This document shows, piece after piece, positions 13,299 through 26,074 of a DNA stretch of 37,185 bases; positions within the stretch are counted from its first letter, which is position 1, and every line of letters begins with the position of its first letter. The notes under the pieces are model-generated. The model worked only from the letters and a program-made list of their open reading frames with translations, made no database searches and was not told where the DNA came from. The stretch comes from Ignavibacteria bacterium. GTDB taxonomy: Bacteria; Bacteroidota; Ignavibacteria; Kapaibacteriales; Kapaibacteriaceae. Made by a program: the position numbers and the translations under genes. The stretch lies in assembly GCA_947459875.1 (NCBI GenBank), contig CANHFG010000014.1, forward strand, positions 1-37,185, written 5' to 3'.

Positions 13299-14294
13299 AT
13301 GTCCTCACCTTGCAACACCAAGTTGACGAAGGTTGCCCTATTCTATGATGGGAACTACTTCCTTCACGTCAGCAACTACTACGCATTCAATCATCCGCGT
13401 AATAGCCGCATAAGCCTCAAAGGCTTGCATGAATTCATCCGTCATCGGATCGCCTCTTCGGAAAACACAGAGGTACACCTGACGCAGATCGTCGACAGTC
13501 ATTTCTTCCGCGGACGTATCTCGGCAAACGAGGCACAGCAGCGGGGAAATCTTCTGTACTATGACCGTGTGTTTGAGGACATCCTCATGTGGGAGGGTGT
13601 TATCACACACTATTTGCCGCTTCGACATAGCGGTGGTCGACGCGAAGAAAAGGGTATCGATGTGTGGATGGCACTCGAGGCGTACGAACTTGCCCTACTG
13701 AAGCAATTCGACGTTGTTGTGCTCATCACCTCTGACGGTAACTACGTGCCACTGGTTCGTAAGCTCAATACCCTTGGTGCACGAGTCATGGTTCTGTCGT
13801 GGGACTTTGAGTTCATCGACAATGAAGGTAAGCACGTGGTAACGCGTACCTCGCAGGAACTCCTCGAAGAGGTAACCTATCCGGTACAGATGCATCAGCT
13901 GATCGAGAGCCGATATGCGGCTGACGATGAAGTGATTCAGAACCTGTTTGTTCGCCGAGATGATACGCAGCCGCGCCCACCACGTGACGCACGCGAAATG
14001 GCCGAACTCACCGAAGGCCGCGCTCCGCGTATCGATCTGGAGGAGGACGATGATGCAGAACGCGTTGAGTCCTACGTGCTGACCCTGAAGAACGGCTATG
14101 GTTTCATTAAGTACCCACCAAACAATCTGTTCTTCCACTCTTCTGATATCCTCAATGCAGATTTTGCAGATCTGCGCGAGGGCGACCCGGTAGACTTCGT
14201 CATCGGCTATAACCGCGATGGTGAAGAGATCGCCAAGCGGGTTAAGCTCATTTTCGAAGAAGAAGAGGAAGATGGGGAAGAAGACGCATCTTAA
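13299..14294 (+). CDS. NYN-domain (LabA/DUF88-type PIN-like) nuclease fused to a cold-shock domain
   Basis: A 331-residue protein, probably an RNA nuclease or RNA-binding regulator. The N-terminal NYN/PIN-like domain (residues about 10-170) has conserved acidic residues at the expected places: FYDGNY (Asp17), EEKGIDVWMALEAY (Asp121) and LITSDGNYVPLVRKL (Asp146). A linker of about 60 charged residues (RRDDTQPRPPRDAREM, EEDDDAE) leads to a C-terminal cold-shock-like OB fold (about 256-320) with NGYGFIKYPPNNLFFHSSDI, DLREGDPVDFVI and AKRVKLI, recalling the RNP1/RNP2 motifs. It ends in an acidic tail. It precedes the aminotransferase by 14 bp, so the two may share a transcript. Confidence 0.85.
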   Translation: MSSPCNTKLTKVALFYDGNYFLHVSNYYAFNHPRNSRISLKGLHEFIRHRIASSENTEVHLTQIVDSHFFRGRISANEAQQRGNLLYYDRVFEDILMWEGVITHYLPLRHSGGRREEKGIDVWMALEAYELALLKQFDVVVLITSDGNYVPLVRKLNTLGARVMVLSWDFEFIDNEGKHVVTRTSQELLEEVTYPVQMHQLIESRYAADDEVIQNLFVRRDDTQPRPPRDAREMAELTEGRAPRIDLEEDDDAERVESYVLTLKNGYGFIKYPPNNLFFHSSDILNADFADLREGDPVDFVIGYNRDGEEIAKRVKLIFEEEEEDGEEDAS

Positions 14295-16755: not shown

Positions 16756-17766
16756 ATGGAAACAATCCATCTCCTCGAAGAACTCATCTCGATCGACTCA
16801 CCCACCGGTTACACGCACAACGCCGCCGATATGATCGAACGTGTGTTACGCTCCTTCGGCTTCGCTCCGGTGCGAACCAAGAAGGGGGCTGTGCGGTGCG
16901 CGCTCGGTCCTGAACCGCGAATTGCCTTTGCCGCCCATACCGATACGCTTGGTGCGATCGTGTCGGGCATCAATGCCAATGGCACTCTTCGGCTGTCGCT
17001 TTTGGGCGGACCTCTGCTTCCGAGCTTTGAAGGGGGCTATGTACGTATCCACACGTTGGACAACCGTGTGTATAGCGGAACGTTGCTTCTGAACGACCCT
17101 TCAACACACGCCAATAACACAGCCGCCACCAAGGAACGCACAACATCAGTGATGCACATCCGCATCGATGAGGTGGTGAGTAAACCGGAAGACGTGCGTG
17201 CGCTCGGTATCCGAACGGGCGACATTATCGCGTTCGACCCGAAGTTCCAGCTTCTCGGAAATGGATACATCAAGAGTCACTTCCTTGATAACAAAGCAGG
17301 GTGTGCGGTGCTGTTCGAACTTGCCGCCCGTGTGAGCAAGATGGGGCGCGCTCTGCCTGTCGAGCTCTTCTTCTCCACCTATGAAGAGGTAGGGCACGGA
17401 GGAGCCCCATCACTGTCGGAAACGATCGATGACCTGATCGTGATCGATATGGGTGTGGTAGGAGATTCCCTTGAAGGAAACGAGCGGAAATGCTCGATCT
17501 GTGCGAAAGATTCCGGCGGACCGTATGACTATCACGTCAGGACAGAGCTTGTGCGGTTGGCCGAATCAAACAGCATTGCCCATGCTGTGGATGTCTATCC
17601 TTTCTACAGCTCTGATGGAACGGCGGCCCTGCGTGCCGGTGCCGATGTCCGTGTTGGTCTGATCGGTCCAGGTGTTGCCGCGTCACACGGCATGGAACGA
17701 ACGCACGTAGATGGAATCACAGCAACAGTAGACCTGTGCATGGCCTATGTAGCTCAAAACAGCTAG
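16756..17766 (+). CDS. M42 family metallopeptidase (aminopeptidase/FrvX-like)
   Basis: A 336-residue dinuclear-metal aminopeptidase of the M42 family, cytoplasmic; these enzymes form large tetrahedral assemblies and trim peptides. The metal ligands and catalytic residues are visible: AHTDTLG (His61, Asp63), SHFLDNKAGCAVL (bridging Asp), STYEEVGHGGAPS (catalytic and metal Glu), LIVIDMGVVGDS, and C-terminal ASHGMERTHVDGI with the last His. Start chosen at the ATG giving METIHLLEELISIDSPTG, which is the normal family N terminus. Full length for the family. The gene ends just before the large non-coding gap. Confidence 0.9.
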   Translation: METIHLLEELISIDSPTGYTHNAADMIERVLRSFGFAPVRTKKGAVRCALGPEPRIAFAAHTDTLGAIVSGINANGTLRLSLLGGPLLPSFEGGYVRIHTLDNRVYSGTLLLNDPSTHANNTAATKERTTSVMHIRIDEVVSKPEDVRALGIRTGDIIAFDPKFQLLGNGYIKSHFLDNKAGCAVLFELAARVSKMGRALPVELFFSTYEEVGHGGAPSLSETIDDLIVIDMGVVGDSLEGNERKCSICAKDSGGPYDYHVRTELVRLAESNSIAHAVDVYPFYSSDGTAALRAGADVRVGLIGPGVAASHGMERTHVDGITATVDLCMAYVAQNS

Positions 17767-18250
17767 TTAGGGTGCTATCCACCAGATCATACACCTGTTG
17801 TTCACAGTTCACACGCTGTGGATTGTGCTGTTTTCAGGACTTACGGGAATCGGAGAAAAGCAAACCGAAATGTTCGGTGTGATTTCAACGAAGAGGGTGT
17901 TTCGAGGTGGATAAATCGCGGAGATGTTTTGTTTCGTTCAATGGTGTGTGCAAAGCAAGCGTTAGATGTTCTGTTGTTGTTCTTTGCACTACAAGTTGAA
18001 GGGGGCGTTTTCCCCTCTGATGGTGAAATCAAAGAGTGTTCAACCGAGGATCGTGAGGCCTGTGAAATCGGGGTTGTGCAGGAGTGCAAGAAGAGAGTTT
18101 CCACGTTGTCCACATGCTTCTATCATCATATAGTCTTCTTCTTTTCTTCCAAGAAAGAAACAATAGAATATGAATATGTGGATGTGGACCGAATTGGAAA
18201 GCTCGATCGATCTTCTGAGATTCGAACCTCAGCTGAAGTCTAGTTCTTTC
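17767..18250. other. Candidate replication origin (oriC): DnaA-box cluster with AT-rich element
   Basis: The only gene-free stretch over 300 bp in the window. It contains DnaA-box-like 9-mers, compared with TTATCCACA: CTATCCACC (17775-17783), TTGTTCACA (17798-17806), a reverse CAATCCACA (17817-17825), a reverse TTATCCACC (17906-17914), TTGTCCACA (18106-18114) and a reverse ACATCCACA (18177-18185). Two of these are 8/9 matches and the others share the 7-base core or differ at two sites. Between the last two lies an AT-rich element. An open frame of 141 codons exists here but has no recognisable family. The parS sites 6 kb away and mnmE/mnmG nearby support an origin-proximal location. I infer, but have not shown, that replication starts here. 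Confidence 0.5.
18121..18180. other. AT-rich putative DNA-unwinding element
   Basis: Sixty bases with 16 G/C by hand count (about 27% GC, against an estimated mid-50s for the window). It contains polypyrimidine CTTCTTCTTTTCTTCC followed by AAGAAAGAAACAATAG, i.e. strand-asymmetric tracts next to a TTGTCCACA box. This is the expected position and composition of an oriC unwinding element. Confidence 0.4.
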
Positions 18251-19513
18251 TCAGATCGTATCGAAACCGCAATACGTCCGCAGACACTCCGGCACGATGA
18301 TCCGGCCATCTGCCGTCTGGTACTGCTCAAGTAGAGCAACCATGATCCGGGATGTGGCAAGACCGCTCCCATTGAGGGTATGCACGAACTCGAGCTTTCC
18401 TGTTTCCTCGACCCGGTACCGGATGTTTGAGCGACGTGCCTGGAAGGATTCAAAGTTCGTGCAGGAACTCACCTCCAGCCACTTCTGCTCCACGGGCGAC
18501 CAGACCTCTAAATCGTAGGTCTTGGATCCACCGAACGTCATATCTCCGGTGCAAAGCAGCAGCACGCGATAGGTGAGTCCGAGTCGCTGAAGAAGAAGTT
18601 CGACGTTCCCTACGAGCGACTCCAGCTCATCGTAGGAAGTGTCCGGACGGACGAATTTTACGAGCTCCACCTTATTGAACTGGTGAACACGAAGAAACCC
18701 ACGGGTGTCTTTCCCGTGACTACCGGCTTCGCGACGGAAGCACGCCGAGTACCCGGCGTAATGAATCGGAAGTTGCTCTGTAGGAATGATCTCATCACGA
18801 TGATAGTTCGTGATCGGTACCTCAGCCGTAGGGATCAGATACAGATCGTCACGCTCGGCATGGTACATGTCTTCTTGGGACTTTGGCAGCTGTCCGGTGC
18901 CACGACATGAATCTGCATTCACAACAAACGGAGGGATCATTTCCGTGTATCCCGATTCCGTGCTGTTGGTGTCGAGAAAGAAGTTAATGAGCGCGCGTTC
19001 CAGGCGAGCCCCTTTTCCGACGTAGAAGCCAAATCCCGATCCGGTGACTTTAGCCCCACGTTCAAAATCGAGGATGCCGAGCTTCTGAGATATCGCAATA
19101 TGATCGACCCGATCACTGCGCTCGGCGCATTCTCCAACGCGTCGAATCTCAACGTTATCATCGGCCGAAGCACCCACAGGCACGCTTTCATGGGCGATGT
19201 TGGGGATCAGCAGCATAATGCTCTCTATGTCTGCTTCGACGTTTCGTAGCTCCTCGTCAAAACCCTTGATACGGTCGCCTACCTCTCGCATGGAGGTGAT
19301 CTTTTCCGTAGCGTCCTGACCCTGTTTTTTGAGCTGCGAAATCTCGTTCGATACCACGTTACGGGTATTCTTCAGCTCCTCGACCGTTTGAATGATCGAT
19401 CGACGGTGAAGATCTAGCTCAAGCAGACGGGTTATGTCGCTTGAGTCATTCTTGTTAGAACAGTTCCGACGGACAGCGTCGGGGTTTTCGCGGATGTATT
19501 TTATGTCGAGCAT
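18251..19513 (-). CDS. serS: Seryl-tRNA synthetase
   Basis: Charges tRNA-Ser (and Sec-type tRNAs where present); class II synthetase, 420 residues, full length. The N-terminal antiparallel coiled-coil arm is seen at MLDIKYIRENPDAVRRN through about residue 100 (charged heptads). Class II motif 2 is CFRREAGSHGKDTRGFLRVHQFNKVE, and motif 3 is LNGSGLATSRIMVALLEQYQ. The family end is TADGRIIVPECLRTYCGFDTI. The ATG at 19513 gives the normal start. It points away from the arylsulfotransferase gene, with 103 bp between the two starts, and its 3' end borders the candidate origin. Confidence 0.97.
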   Translation of the reverse strand: MLDIKYIRENPDAVRRNCSNKNDSSDITRLLELDLHRRSIIQTVEELKNTRNVVSNEISQLKKQGQDATEKITSMREVGDRIKGFDEELRNVEADIESIMLLIPNIAHESVPVGASADDNVEIRRVGECAERSDRVDHIAISQKLGILDFERGAKVTGSGFGFYVGKGARLERALINFFLDTNSTESGYTEMIPPFVVNADSCRGTGQLPKSQEDMYHAERDDLYLIPTAEVPITNYHRDEIIPTEQLPIHYAGYSACFRREAGSHGKDTRGFLRVHQFNKVELVKFVRPDTSYDELESLVGNVELLLQRLGLTYRVLLLCTGDMTFGGSKTYDLEVWSPVEQKWLEVSSCTNFESFQARRSNIRYRVEETGKLEFVHTLNGSGLATSRIMVALLEQYQTADGRIIVPECLRTYCGFDTI

Positions 19514-19616
19514 GGTACAAATTTACATCCCCTCACGTCCGGGAAATGAACCTGTTACCTTGCTCGTCTTTCGCGGTTCTTACTCGCAGCACCACACAAA
19601 CATCTCCTCAAGCCCC
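19514..19616. promoter_or_regulatory. Divergent promoter region of serS and the arylsulfotransferase-like gene
   Basis: The 103-bp region separates two divergent starts. I find no palindrome, repeat or obvious T-box-like leader for serS; the promoters themselves are not recognisable by eye. Confidence 0.25.
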
Positions 19617-22070
19617 ATGAAGTCTCTGCTTACTCTCCTTTGCTCACTCTTTGCGGTCATTTCCTTCCCATTCCCGACCGCGGCGCAGATACTCCCCCCT
19701 GTGACCATAAAAACCTCGACAGCACCGGGCGCAGGGGCGCTTTTTCTTGCACCCAATAGTCGCGTTGCGAACCCTCCTTTTGCTCCCTCACTGCTGATCG
19801 TAGGAAACGATGGAAAGCCCCTTGCCTCAAGATTTCTCAAGGATTATGCTTTTGATTTCCGCGTTCTTCCGGATGGTCGAATGGGGTACAGCATCTTTCA
19901 ATCAGCGGGAACCGGACCACGCGAGTCATCCAGTATCTATATCGTTGACACTATACTGAACACCGTTGACTCGTTAGCCGGAGCAAACGGTTACAATCTC
20001 GCTATGCACGGATTCCTCGTGCTTCCAAATGGAAACCGCGTGGTAATCATGCAGGAGAACGTGACCGTCGACATGCGCTCGATCGTCCCCGGAGGTCACC
20101 CCGCTGCATCGGTTCAACAAATGCTCCTGCAGGAAATAGACATCAACGGTCTAATCCTCTTTCAGTGGAGATCGCTTGATCACTTTCCCGTAACGGTCTC
20201 ATACGAAGACCTTACACTCCCTTCCATTCGCTATTTCCACCTCAACTCCGTGGAAATAGACCGTGACGGACATTTTCTCATCAGCGCCCGGCATGCGTCA
20301 TTGGTTGCAAAGATTCATCGCACGACCGGTGAAGTGCTCTGGATCCTGGGCGGTAAGCTAAATCAGTTTACCTTCGAGAACGGTCTCGGTAATGCAGGTC
20401 CGGCGGAGTTTTCCTATCAGCACGACGCACGCCGACTGCCCAATGGGAACATCTCGGTCTTTGATAACGGAACCCAGAGAACACCGCAGTGGTCACGGGG
20501 CGCAGAGTACGAGATAGACGAAGACAAAAAGACCTGTAAACTGGTTTGGCAGTATCGCAAGACGCCAGATCTCTATGCGGGCGTGCAGGGGTCTATGCAG
20601 ACGCTCAAGAACGGCAACCGTGTGATCGCCTGGGGATCAGCCCTTTCCAACAACCGCACGCTCGTTACCGAAGTAGACACCAAAGGCGATGTTGTGTTCG
20701 AGGCAGAGCTGCCGAATATGATGTTTCCCTACAAGGCTGAACGGTATCCCTTTCCAACAGGTCGGTATGCGGCAGACGTTCTGATCGACGAGATACTACC
20801 TACGAACACCTACGTCTACACACGCGGCGCAGACACCGTTGGAGTCTCGATCACCTATCACACTCTGATTTCCTTCTTCTACAACACCACCACAGCACGA
20901 CGTTATATGTGGTCGCCCGAAAACCCCCGGTTTGTCAGCGGTAAAGGCGCATCGGCTGTGGCTGTCTCTGCACCGACGTCGATCTATCAGTCACGCATGA
21001 CCATCACCCAGGAAGGGATGGAAAGTCATGGCGCAGAGTTTCGTTTCAACGTAGATCGATTCGGCATCACAGATCCGGCGAATACAACGGTGTATTGCCG
21101 GGACACGATCGGGAAGGGGGCTTTTTTTGCCCTCCGCACTCGATACAACCCGAACACCCGCGAGCTCGTCGTCGATACTGCGCAGGTAGGGGAGTTCTGT
21201 TTTGGAAGCCCTATCACACCTTCATCGCTGGTGCGTGCCCCTCGCCCCCTCACTCCGATCGGTGGTGTGAAGGTCTCCGATGCAGACCCTGTAACGCTGC
21301 GCGTCTCGCCACAGGGCGTGTATTCACGACTCCGGTATCTGGTGAACACCACGACAGGTCAGAGGGTGCTCGATACCCTCGTCGCGCGAGATAGGTTCGT
21401 TACCCTTAAGCCCCTTGCACCTGGACGTTACTCATGGAACACGCAGGCCGTAGTCATCGCACCCGATGGCACTGAAACTGGACGGTCTGAGTTGTCAGCC
21501 ACGGACAGTTTTGAAGTAGCCTCGCCCTTTCTTGCAATCAATGGGCTCGATTCAGAGCAGGTGTGGGTCAGGGACGTGGCCTACCCGATAACATGGACGA
21601 CCAACCTCGTCGGCAACGTCAGGATAGAACTCGTTAACGAAACCCGCGTTATCGCAACGATCACCGATAGTGTGCGTGCTCCATTGCAGGGTTTCCTGTG
21701 GCGCGTGCCTGTCAGTGTGCCAACCGGAAGTGGCTATGGTCTTCGTTTTATCTCCCTGGTATCCGGTTCACCTCTTACCGAGGAGTCACCTCGTGTGATC
21801 ACGATCGATCAGGGGTCGTCGGTCTCCAGTCTATGGGAGCGTGGTATCACAATCGGACCCAATCCTGCCTCCGCTAGTGTTTTTGTAGGGGGCGATGTGG
21901 AGCTCTCACAGATTTACATCTTCGACAATCTTGGCACGCTGCGTTCATCTACGTCTGTCGTCGGCACGGGTACAAGACTTGATGTTTCCGATTTACCTCA
22001 GGGAGTGTATCATCTCGTGATACGCACCTCGAATGGTCAGACAACACGTCCGCTGGTCATCGAGCGCTGA
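19617..22070 (+). CDS. Arylsulfotransferase (ASST)-like exported protein with T9SS sorting domain
   Basis: An 817-residue exported protein. The ATG at 19617 gives MKSLLTLLCSLFAVISFPFPTAAQ, a signal peptide; the longer frame from 19434 overlaps serS and is rejected. Residues about 60-400 resemble the arylsulfotransferase beta-propeller (EIDINGLILFQWRSLDHF, YFHLNSVEIDRDGHFLISARH, HRTTGEVLWILGG, FSYQHDARRLPNGNISVFDNG, QGSMQTLKNGNRVIAWG), the pattern of PF05935/PF14269-type proteins. Residues about 690-770 are a Kre9/Knh1-like domain (VWVRDVAYPITWTTNLVGNV, FLWRVPVSVPTG). The end is a T9SS type A sorting domain (ITIGPNPASASVFV, LPQGVYHLVIRTSNGQ, RPLVIE). Whether it transfers sulfate is unproved. 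It converges with mnmG, 9 bp apart. Confidence 0.82.
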   Translation: MKSLLTLLCSLFAVISFPFPTAAQILPPVTIKTSTAPGAGALFLAPNSRVANPPFAPSLLIVGNDGKPLASRFLKDYAFDFRVLPDGRMGYSIFQSAGTGPRESSSIYIVDTILNTVDSLAGANGYNLAMHGFLVLPNGNRVVIMQENVTVDMRSIVPGGHPAASVQQMLLQEIDINGLILFQWRSLDHFPVTVSYEDLTLPSIRYFHLNSVEIDRDGHFLISARHASLVAKIHRTTGEVLWILGGKLNQFTFENGLGNAGPAEFSYQHDARRLPNGNISVFDNGTQRTPQWSRGAEYEIDEDKKTCKLVWQYRKTPDLYAGVQGSMQTLKNGNRVIAWGSALSNNRTLVTEVDTKGDVVFEAELPNMMFPYKAERYPFPTGRYAADVLIDEILPTNTYVYTRGADTVGVSITYHTLISFFYNTTTARRYMWSPENPRFVSGKGASAVAVSAPTSIYQSRMTITQEGMESHGAEFRFNVDRFGITDPANTTVYCRDTIGKGAFFALRTRYNPNTRELVVDTAQVGEFCFGSPITPSSLVRAPRPLTPIGGVKVSDADPVTLRVSPQGVYSRLRYLVNTTTGQRVLDTLVARDRFVTLKPLAPGRYSWNTQAVVIAPDGTETGRSELSATDSFEVASPFLAINGLDSEQVWVRDVAYPITWTTNLVGNVRIELVNETRVIATITDSVRAPLQGFLWRVPVSVPTGSGYGLRFISLVSGSPLTEESPRVITIDQGSSVSSLWERGITIGPNPASASVFVGGDVELSQIYIFDNLGTLRSSTSVVGTGTRLDVSDLPQGVYHLVIRTSNGQTTRPLVIER

Positions 22071-22079
22071 GCAGACATA

Positions 22080-23939
22080 CTATCGCAGATACAACGCCAG
22101 GATTGAAACGTCGGATGCCGAGACACCCGGTATGCGAGATGCCTGACCTAAGGATGACGGGCGAATGCGAGCTAGTTTCATTCGAGCTTCAGTTGAGAGA
22201 CTTTGAACCTTATCGTAGCTGAATGTCTCGGGTATCATCATCGATTCCTGTTGCCGGAATCGATAGATTTCTTTGTGCAGTTTCTCAATGTATCCCTCGT
22301 AGCGGATCGCCGTGTCTACGCGATGGATCACGTCTGGATGTTCACTGTAGATGTCCGTGTTTACAGCATCGGATTTCGCAACAAGCAGGCGTGATAGGTT
22401 TACGTTAGGTCGCCGAACGATCGTGCGGATGGTTGTTGTTTCGACGATCGGCTCTTCGTTGACTTCACGAAGTATCGGGTCGGCCTCCGCCGGAGTGATC
22501 TTTGTTTCGTGGGTCACGCGTTCAAGACGCGCTACAAGTTCTTCTTTCCTCGTGATCTTGTTCCACGTGGCGTTACTGATCAGTCCGAGTGAGTGTCCAT
22601 ATCTCGACAGTCGTGAATACGCTGTGTCGATGCGCAGAAGTAGTCGGTACTCGGCCAATGACGTAAAGATCCGATAGGGCTCTTCGGTGTTCTTGTTCAC
22701 GAGATCATCGATCATTACGCCGATGTAGGCCTCGGACCGTTTGAGAGTGAATGTTCCTTCGTTACGGACTGACAGAGCTGCGTTGATGCCCGCCACCAGG
22801 CCCTGTGCGGCTGCTTCTTCGTATCCGGAAGTGCCGTTTATCTGACCGGCAAAGTAGAGCCCCTTGATCGCCTTCGTTTCCAGACCAAAGGTCAACTGAT
22901 ACGGAAAGAAGAAGTCGTACTCGACCGCATAACCATGACGAAGGATCGTCGCATTTTCAAGGCCTTGTATGCTGCGAAGTCCACGCTCCTGTATGTCAAC
23001 TGGTAAACTAGTTGAGAAACCGTTGACGTAGACCGTGTTGGTGCTCAAGCCTTCGGGTTCTAAGACAATGGTGTGGGATGCCCTGTCCGAGAACCGGTCT
23101 ACCTTATCCTCGATCGATGGACAATACCGAGGTCCGGCACCCTTGATCCGTCCGGTAAACATTGGTGAACGCGAGAACCCTTCGCGAAGGATCTCATGCG
23201 TCTGCTCCGTCGTAGAAGTGGCAAAACACGCGAGCCTATTCCGGACATGACGGGTATGGATAGAGAACGGGAGTGGTGTTTCATCTCCGTCGTGGGTGAC
23301 CATTTTAGACAGATCGATCGATGCCAGGTCCACCCGCGGAGGCGTCCCCGTCTTGAGTCGACCTTTCTCCAACCCATGACTTGCCAGCAGATCGGAGATG
23401 CTCTCAGCCGCGCGCTCACCCACACGTCCACCGGCGGAACACGTCTCTCCGGTCCACATCACTCCATTGAGAAACGTCCCTGAACAGAGAATGACCGCCG
23501 AAGCCGTTAGCTCCTCATTTTCCGCCGTCTTAATCCCGTAGACCTGTGATCCACGTACAAGGATTTCGACCGCAGTCTGGGCAACCACGGTGATTCCTCG
23601 ATGCTGCCGAAGAAGATGTTGAGCGAAGGTAGGGTAGAGGTCTTTGTCGTTCTGTGACCGGGGCGACCAGACAGCCGGACCCTTGGAGGTGTTTAGGAGC
23701 TTAAACTGGATACCACTAGCATCGGCTATGCGGGGCATAACGCCCCCTAATGCATCGATCTCGATTGCCAGGTGTCCCTTGGCACTCCCACCGATCGATG
23801 GGTTACAGGAAAGACGTCCGATCGTTCGAGGGTCCATGGACAATAGACCCACACGCATGCCCATCCGGGCGGCCGCGCAGGACGCTTCGATCCCAGCATG
23901 ACCGCCGCCGATGACCAAAACGTCAAACAGAGGCTTCAT
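22080..23939 (-). CDS. mnmG: tRNA uridine-5-carboxymethylaminomethyl(34) synthesis enzyme MnmG
   Basis: FAD-dependent partner of MnmE in modification of the wobble uridine of tRNAs; 619 residues, full length. The FAD Rossmann motif is [19 protein letters not shown] (residues 9-27). Family signatures [42 protein letters not shown] and [16 protein letters not shown] all appear in order, followed by the helical C-terminal tRNA-binding domain. Start ATG at 23939. Its upstream spacer (to 24082) carries two parS-like palindromes. The same-strand order mnmE, GNAT, mnmG suggests one transcription unit or two; in many genomes the mnmE-mnmG pair lies near oriC. Confidence 0.97.
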
Positions 23940-24008: not shown

Positions 24009-24028
24009 AACGTTCCACGTGGAACGTT
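24009..24028. other. parS-like ParB-binding site 1 (perfect palindrome)
   Basis: AACGTTCCACGTGGAACGTT is a perfect 20-bp palindrome. Its core GTTCCACGTGGAAC matches the conserved parS consensus TGTTNCACGTGNAACA at 14 of 16 positions, the end bases being C and G here. It lies in the 143-bp spacer between mnmG and the GNAT gene, where no coding is evident. Binding by ParB is expected from established parS conservation; not shown. Confidence 0.8.
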
Positions 24029-24066
24029 CACAAACTAAACTTTCAAATCACAGGAAATGCAAAATG

Positions 24067-24082
24067 TGTTTCACGTGGAACA
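24067..24082. other. parS-like ParB-binding site 2
   Basis: TGTTTCACGTGGAACA matches the parS consensus (TGTTTCACGTGAAACA in Bacillus subtilis) at 15 of 16 positions, with one T/G mismatch within the palindrome. It ends at the base before the GNAT gene's TAG stop (24083-24085). Centre-to-centre distance from site 1 is about 56 bp, i.e. five to six helical turns. Confidence 0.82.
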
Positions 24083-24613: not shown

Positions 24614-25975
24614 TCATTTCCCTATGCAGAAACGCGAAAAAACTGTTTCGAGAACGTCCGGATTCCACGTTTCCCCAGTGATCTCTCCGAGGAGCCGGAT
24701 GGCTGTACGGAGATCCACGGCGAGTTCGTCGCCAGAAGCGCGACGGTCGATTCCGGTAAGGACTGCCACCAGGCAGTCGGCTATGGCCATCAGGAGGGAG
24801 GCCTGACGGGCATTGACAAGGTAGTCGTTGACGTTCGTGGTGCTGTGGCGAACGTCTGAAAGAATGACGCCACGGAGGGTATCAATCCCTGCGCCAGTTT
24901 TGGCTGAGCAGACAATAGTACCTGCTGGCTGTGCATACACTTCTGAAAGTAGGTCGCTCTTGTTCTGGACCAGTAGAACGGGGATATCCGGGAAGCGCTC
25001 CTGAAGCTCGGTAAAGAGCGCGTTAGAATGGTCAGCCCCCAACGAAATGTCGTTAAGAACAAGCACCAGGTCTGCTTGTTCCATAACCGAAGCGGTGATG
25101 GCGATACCTTCTAGCTCGATCGAATCTTCGGTCTGGCGCAGTCCCGCTGTATCGACGAGGTGGACGGTGTATCCGTCCAGGATCACTGATTCGCTCAGGT
25201 AGTCCCGGGTGGTGCCTGGGATATCGCTCACGATCGCGCGGTTACGCAGCAGTAGCGCGTTGAACAGCGAGCTCTTTCCGGCATTTGGAAAGCCGACCAC
25301 AGCCACGTGAAAGCCAGACCGGAGAACGCTAGCGGCCTGAGCCGATGAAGCGATGAGATGAATCTCTGAAGCGATATCAAGGATCCGCAAGCGCAGGTCG
25401 GCCCGCGGGACAAATTCGACGTCTTCCTCGGAGAAGTCCAGCTCAAGCTCGATCAGGCCTACGATCTCCAAAAGAGCAGATCGGATGGATTCGAGGCGGC
25501 GCGTAAAGCCCCCTGCCAACTGACGTGCTGCGATCTGAGCTCCACGGTGGGAGGCCGCATGGATCATGTCTGCGACGGCTTCAACCTGAACTAGATCGAG
25601 CTTTCGGTTGAGGAACGCCCGACGCGTGAACTCGCCCGGATCGGCAGGACGTGCCCCTGCCGACAGCAGGTCCGCAATGATCGTATCACAGATGAACACA
25701 CCTCCATGACATCCGATCTCGACGACATCTTCACCGGTGTAGGATCGTGGGCAACGGTAGATCATGAGTGTAACGGAATCGACCCGACGATCCAACTCGC
25801 CCCACCATCCAAAGTGGATGGTATGATCCGGAGCATCTACTGCAGAGATGCTTCCTCGAAAAAAAACATCGCAGTACTCAAATGCCCGTGGACCGCTGAT
25901 GCGGATGACTGCAAGACCCGCAACGCCCGGTGGGGTTGCAAGAGCGCAGATAGTATCGGATGAGGCAAGACTCAT
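24614..25975 (-). CDS. mnmE: tRNA uridine-5-carboxymethylaminomethyl(34) synthesis GTPase MnmE
   Basis: GTPase that works with MnmG on tRNA wobble uridines; about 453 residues. The ATG at 25975 gives MSLASSDTICALATPPGVAGLAVIRISG, the family N terminus; the longer frame adds a cysteine-rich MCCLLFCAPC with no homology. The formyl-THF-binding N domain is followed by helical parts and a G domain with P-loop GFPNAGKSS (228-236), DTAGLRQTEDSIE switch II, NKSD (NKxD) and a C-terminal FCIGK with the catalytic cysteine. All essential motifs are intact. Divergent from birA across 99 bp. Confidence 0.97.
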   Translation of the reverse strand: MSLASSDTICALATPPGVAGLAVIRISGPRAFEYCDVFFRGSISAVDAPDHTIHFGWWGELDRRVDSVTLMIYRCPRSYTGEDVVEIGCHGGVFICDTIIADLLSAGARPADPGEFTRRAFLNRKLDLVQVEAVADMIHAASHRGAQIAARQLAGGFTRRLESIRSALLEIVGLIELELDFSEEDVEFVPRADLRLRILDIASEIHLIASSAQAASVLRSGFHVAVVGFPNAGKSSLFNALLLRNRAIVSDIPGTTRDYLSESVILDGYTVHLVDTAGLRQTEDSIELEGIAITASVMEQADLVLVLNDISLGADHSNALFTELQERFPDIPVLLVQNKSDLLSEVYAQPAGTIVCSAKTGAGIDTLRGVILSDVRHSTTNVNDYLVNARQASLLMAIADCLVAVLTGIDRRASGDELAVDLRTAIRLLGEITGETWNPDVLETVFSRFCIGK

Positions 25976-26074
25976 ACAGGGAGCACAAAATAGCAGACAG
26001 CACACGAAAATGGCGGTATGTTGCGCAGGTCACATCTGTCGAATGAACGGATGTAAACATTTTTACTTTTTGTC
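25976..26074. promoter_or_regulatory. Divergent promoter region of mnmE and birA
   Basis: The 99-bp spacer between two divergent starts must hold both promoters. Its right half is A/T-rich (AAACATTTTTACTTTTTG, 26054-26071) just before the TTG start of birA. No operator-like repeat noticed. Confidence 0.3.

Follow-up and report, generated by a model that had tools for sequence, protein, structure and literature searches.

A conserved DnaA-box and AT-rich module beside serS as the probable chromosomal replication origin of an uncultured Kapaibacterium

Where chromosome replication begins in an uncultured Candidatus Kapaibacterium (genome G000; a 2.40-Mb assembly in 150 contigs) is the question raised by a gap between two convergent genes, an M42-family peptidase gene and serS, both of which point their 3' ends toward it (17767-18250). 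The gap lies in the window, by which we mean the whole 37,185-nucleotide stretch analysed (contig C14), and had been put forward in a preliminary description as a candidate chromosomal replication origin (oriC). This interpretation was supported by the DnaA boxes of the gap, a conserved and unique core, an unstable element and a GC-skew switch in a complete relative (G014); as judged from the sequence, the gap is very probably the oriC. The features are collected in Table 1.

Table 1. Coordinates of the proposed origin and its surroundings in the window (strand "." where none applies).
Feature	Position	Strand	Basis or match
M42-family peptidase gene, left neighbour of gap	16756..17766	+	
Proposed oriC: non-coding gap M42 peptidase / serS, 484 bp	17767..18250	.	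ORF coordinates, boxes, family synteny
Left cluster, three weak putative DnaA boxes: CTATCCACC +, TTGTTCACA +, TGTGGATTG (= CAATCCACA on -)	17775..17825	.	
Putative DnaA box TTATCCACC, 8/9	17906..17914	-	
Putative tandem DnaA boxes GTTTCCACG-TTGTCCACA, predicted platform of unwinding module	18097..18114	+	
Whole core by 18-genome profile	18098..18171	+	E 2.4e-9, 38.4 bits
3-bp spacer + 3-nt-periodic DnaA-trio-like tract (tgc TTC TAT CAT CAT ATA)	18115..18132	+	
AT-rich element, 26.7% G+C, candidate DNA unwinding element	18119..18178	.	nearest-neighbour energies; kept in family alignment
Inverted DnaA-box-like sites TGTGGATGTGGAC, closing right side of core	18177..18189	-	
serS (serine-tRNA ligase), right neighbour of gap	18251..19513	-	TIGR00414, E 1e-150
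parS-like pair	24011..24082	.	24011-24026 CGTTCCACGTGGAACG 12/16; 24067-24082 TGTTTCACGTGGAACA 15/16, vs TGTTTCACGTGAAACA

The preliminary description had counted six DnaA-box-like 9-mers in the 484 bp, and six with no more than two mismatches to TTATCCACA were indeed found, at 17775 (+), 17798 (+), 17817 (-), 17906 (-), 18106 (+) and 18177 (-); dinucleotide shuffles of the gap gave a mean of 1.45 such 9-mers and reached six at p = 0.002. Two of the boxes match TTATCCACA at eight of nine positions, as had been described (TTATCCACC at 17906, minus strand, and TTGTCCACA at 18106, plus strand). The single 8/9 match to TTATNCACA that had also been described was an undercount, as there are three: TTATCCACC, TTGTCCACA and, at 17798, TTGTTCACA. 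Overlooked at that stage was GTTTCCACG at 18097-18105, which forms a conserved tandem with the 18106 box and carries three mismatches; thus the box adjoining the repeat is an 8/9 match and its partner only a 6/9 match, which counts against the oriC reading. When the gaps of 21 family genomes were pooled, 141 sites were present at two mismatches or fewer, versus 40 in shuffles, and 41 at one mismatch or fewer, versus 3.

The boxes are unequally preserved. In the four closest genomes the tandem pair is among the longest conserved blocks, much of the remaining gap having diverged, and the 9-bp spacing of the pair recurs in most family members. The boxes of the left cluster are individually less conserved than the pair; the cluster is partly kept in G008, G001 and G009, and the 17906 box occupies the same site in G001 and is degraded in G008 and G009. 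On the far side of the core, past the end of the purine run, 11 of 21 family genomes carry box halves in inverted orientation (TGTGGA/GTGGAT; 20 in total, versus 1.8 in shuffles), with only one forward half among the same 21, suggesting that the core may be bounded on both sides by inward-facing boxes.

The core itself (18097-18165) has a fixed order: two tandem boxes, a tract with 3-nt periodicity, and a polypyrimidine/polypurine tract. The 60-bp element of about 27% G+C noticed earlier was recovered at 18119-18178, which by nearest-neighbour energies has the lowest stability in the entire window at stretch lengths of 40, 60 and 100 bp, and the strand asymmetry attributed to it was likewise present, as TCTTCTTCTTTTCTTCC followed by AAGAAAGAAACA (18134-18162). 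Across 22 genomes, identity within the periodic tract was 0.47 at lag 3, versus 0.14-0.31 at lags 1, 2, 4 and 5; lag-3 matches numbered 174, versus 111 +/- 8 in shuffles, and 0 of 2000 shuffles scored as high, a probability which is not literal because the compared genomes are related. The idea that the AT-rich element always includes a strong inverted repeat was found unsupported (mean arm score of 5.6 versus 4.7 in shuffles); the repeat is clear in the best cases, G007 and G010.

In order to follow the core through other genomes, a profile was built from 18 family genomes, with G000 excluded. Over the full 2.4-Mb assembly of G000 this profile recognized a single place, 18098-18171 of the window; the only other match was a weak one (15.9 bits) on the reverse strand of that same place (18128-18186, minus). 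Weak reverse-strand matches were seen in G004, G008 and G010 as well, and suggest a two-sided arrangement. The preliminary description had named conservation of the boxes in relatives as a check on its proposal; in a profile search of 60 genomes, the tandem pair and repeat were kept beside serS in 20 of the 23 family genomes, 18 of which had built the profile, with G000 and its near twin G008 held out. As to the other three family genomes, the G005 assembly lacks serS, G022 contains only a serS fragment, and G011 carries, by eye, a degraded version. On the 3' side of serS, the relatives present the same succession of a co-oriented box pair, 3-bp spacer, periodic tract, pyrimidine run and purine run.

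Other families of the order were less uniform. G044, which was not part of the profile, gave a core match beside serS (E 3.5e-4), and direct reading of G027 and G029 located tandem boxes at the place beside serS, so that the box pair and repeat are recognisable in three genomes from two other families. In G024, an order-level relative from another family, the structure beside serS is not kept and the skew switch (on G024:C1) lies roughly 0.15-0.3 Mb from serS; the serS landmark is therefore not order-wide. Within the family serS is the constant neighbour of the core. In four genomes of other genera (G011, G014, G019 and G020) an extra gene separates the M42 gene from the gap, which remains with serS; by eye, this extra gene appears Dps/ferritin-like.

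A GC-skew minimum far from the gap had been named as grounds against an origin here. Because G000 is a 150-contig draft, its skew was read locally, and the chromosome-wide pattern was taken from G014, the one complete genome among the family genomes compared, a single contig of 2,841,677 bases. Skew was negative in every one of ten 20-kb samples of G014 taken between 100 kb and 1.38 Mb, and positive in all but one of eleven taken between 1.5 and 2.76 Mb; the cumulative minimum, computed over a contiguous 300 kb, fell at 1,465,929, and the orthologous core at 1,473,670, 7-8 kb away. The opposite switch is found at 20-100 kb, which is half a chromosome from the first. The pattern recurs in another family on G027:C15, where negative skew over 50-245 kb gives way to mostly positive skew over 300-470 kb; the switch spans 225-300 kb, and the core structure beside serS lies within it, at about 282.1 kb. 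Locally, the window, G001, G008 and G010 have a skew minimum at a distance of 3.3-7.7 kb from the core (3.4 kb in the window). The single contigs of G002, G012, G015 and G021 displayed no local skew minimum at the core; these weigh less than G014, because the skew is weak (about 0.01) and the contigs are short, and are nonetheless counted against the oriC reading.

In many bacteria the origin lies beside dnaA, and DnaA-box clusters without origin function occur in other bacteria, E. coli datA being one example; the serS gap could on these grounds be a secondary DnaA-binding site, serving as a titration or regulatory locus, with the origin itself beside dnaA. The dnaA gene of G000, on contig C54, does have one perfect TTATCCACA approximately 160 bp upstream. 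However, the dnaA of G014 (at 1,324,000) is positioned 150 kb inside the negative-skew arm, and it is at the serS gap that the skew switches; the core profile, when searched over the own assembly, had no match at the dnaA locus; and a titration site would not require a periodic tract and an unstable element in fixed order. We rejected an origin beside dnaA on the skew of G014 and the core profile, and consider this explanation very unlikely.

The convergence of the M42 peptidase gene and serS raises the plainer possibility that the gap is a 3' region consisting of terminators and boxes that arose by chance, and three terminator-like hairpins were present where 0.6 were expected. These hairpins are located at 17800-17878, however, apart from the conserved core, whose sequence, spacing and periodicity are maintained across the family, which stays in place where another gene replaces M42 as the neighbour, and which coincides with the G014 skew switch; we regard such a reading as highly improbable. 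A coding function of the gap, for a small protein or for a structured RNA, is scarcely credible. A 141-codon frame does run through the gap (17818-18243), but in G008, a genome with a 97% identical SerS, this frame is broken by three internal stops, and in G001 by more. An Rfam search of the gap returned no family match; the coding and RNA candidates were thus rejected, and the gap was taken to be non-coding.

With the gap as the probable origin, its closest model is the basal/bacterial unwinding system (BUS) of B. subtilis oriC, which comprises DnaA-box#6/#7 and DnaA-trios (PMC6669920, PMC8287927, PMC10721633). Both have two co-oriented boxes, a spacer of 3-4 nt, a one-strand tract with 3-nt periodicity, AT-rich DNA and further, distant boxes. 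The Kapaibacterium version differs in that its boxes are weaker, dnaA lies elsewhere, about half of the family has inverted boxes closing the other side, and the genus repeat is YAT on the box strand rather than CTA/TTA (3'-GAT-5', 3'-AAT-5'). The oriC reading is based on the sequence elements, on how well they are conserved, on their being unique in the genome and on their agreement with the G014 skew switch; for DnaA binding, unwinding and the choice of strand, the inference is drawn from B. subtilis. By this analogy, DnaA-ATP would bind the tandem boxes, with DnaA on the left cluster and the inverted boxes assisting; a DnaA oligomer would then extend along one strand of the periodic tract, flipping out bases, and the AT-rich element would thereby open for helicase loading.

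The register of the repeat bears on how closely the analogy may hold. Counted from a 3-nt spacer, the first phase of the genus repeat holds a pyrimidine in 34 of 36 cases, the second A in 33 and the third T in 32; in this register, other genera of the family show a mixture of YAT and YTA. In B. subtilis the trio is 3'-GAT-5', corresponding to CTA on the box strand, and GAT is the most frequent trio and not an absolute requirement (PMC6669920, PMC8287927, PMC10721633). The genus array can be read in either of two registers, a 3-nt spacer with 3'-RTA-5' (middle T) or a 4-nt spacer with 3'-TAR-5' (middle A), and its trios are not mostly 3'-GAT-5'. The published BUS rule specifies a box with at most two mismatches, a spacer of up to 16 nt and at least three NAN trios (PMC8287927). 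G000 conforms to it, as the box TTGTCCACA (one mismatch) is followed by three consecutive NAN trios, 3'-TAG TAG TAT-5'; several family genomes have no run longer than one or two NAN trios, so that the rule does not hold family-wide. Deviant trio motifs were suspected to exist (PMC8287927), and a deviant array in this genus, 3'-GTA-5' with a middle T in the family-shared register, is a tentative reading that we find rather doubtful.

The protein expected to read this tract is altered as well. In B. subtilis DnaA, Asn187 holds the middle A of the trio through hydrogen bonding, and Arg202 together with Glu228 holds the G in the same way (PMC10721633). When the Kapaibacterium DnaA (L032:7433-8935, G000:C54) was aligned to 8btg_A, all three positions were found replaced (N187 to M, R202 to T and E228 to M, in B. 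subtilis numbering), while Ile190, Ile193 and Asn196 were retained; positions 187 and 202 are identical across all seven DnaA proteins aligned. Replacement of these trio-contacting residues suggests that the single-strand reading code of Kapaibacterium DnaA may differ. No covariation of DnaA residues with trio type was seen within the family; G012 and G017, which have near-canonical tracts, share the DnaA replacements, indicating that repeat and protein do not simply covary. With both the repeat and the DnaA pocket altered, the strictness with which DnaA reads single-stranded DNA becomes directly testable.

The parS-like sites reported 6 kb from the gap could be confirmed as two palindromes 56 bp apart that are situated at a distance of 5.8 kb, with mnmG on one side and an acetyltransferase-like gene on the other. 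Nine further family genomes have sites with two mismatches or fewer to TGTTTCACGTGAAACA on the serS side of the core and no more than a few kb from it, paired in every case except G012. A site pair within 6 kb of the origin that recurs in relatives resembles the origin-proximal centromere of the parS-ParB system; unlike the usual parS, TGTTTCACGTGAAACA, several copies here have TGTTCCACGTGGAACA halves. Once the origin had opened, these sites would mark the origin region for ParB segregation.

Compared with oriCs predicted by Ori-Finder or listed in DoriC (PMC6323995, PMC10225481), the gap is likewise intergenic, carries a cluster of DnaA boxes, coincides with or lies close to a skew minimum and has conserved synteny, but its neighbour is serS rather than dnaA or dnaN. 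Within the collection of papers searched, none contained both 'Kapabacteria' and 'oriC'. An uncultured lineage would hereby gain an origin with a simple landmark, the 3' side of serS, which would be useful to orient genomes and to estimate growth rates from coverage; the layout of boxes, trios and AT-rich DNA would then persist far from model organisms and away from dnaA.

The genes surrounding the gap were also inspected. Both mnmG (22080-23939) and mnmE (24614-26005), cited earlier as neighbours typical of an origin, are present, and their proximity is by itself weak evidence for one. Adjoining serS, window positions 19434-22070 encode a large protein that carries a T9SS type A sorting domain. 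At 13299-14294 lies a protein that weakly matches an NYN-domain family; its C-terminus weakly matches a small family and is perhaps a cold-shock-like domain.
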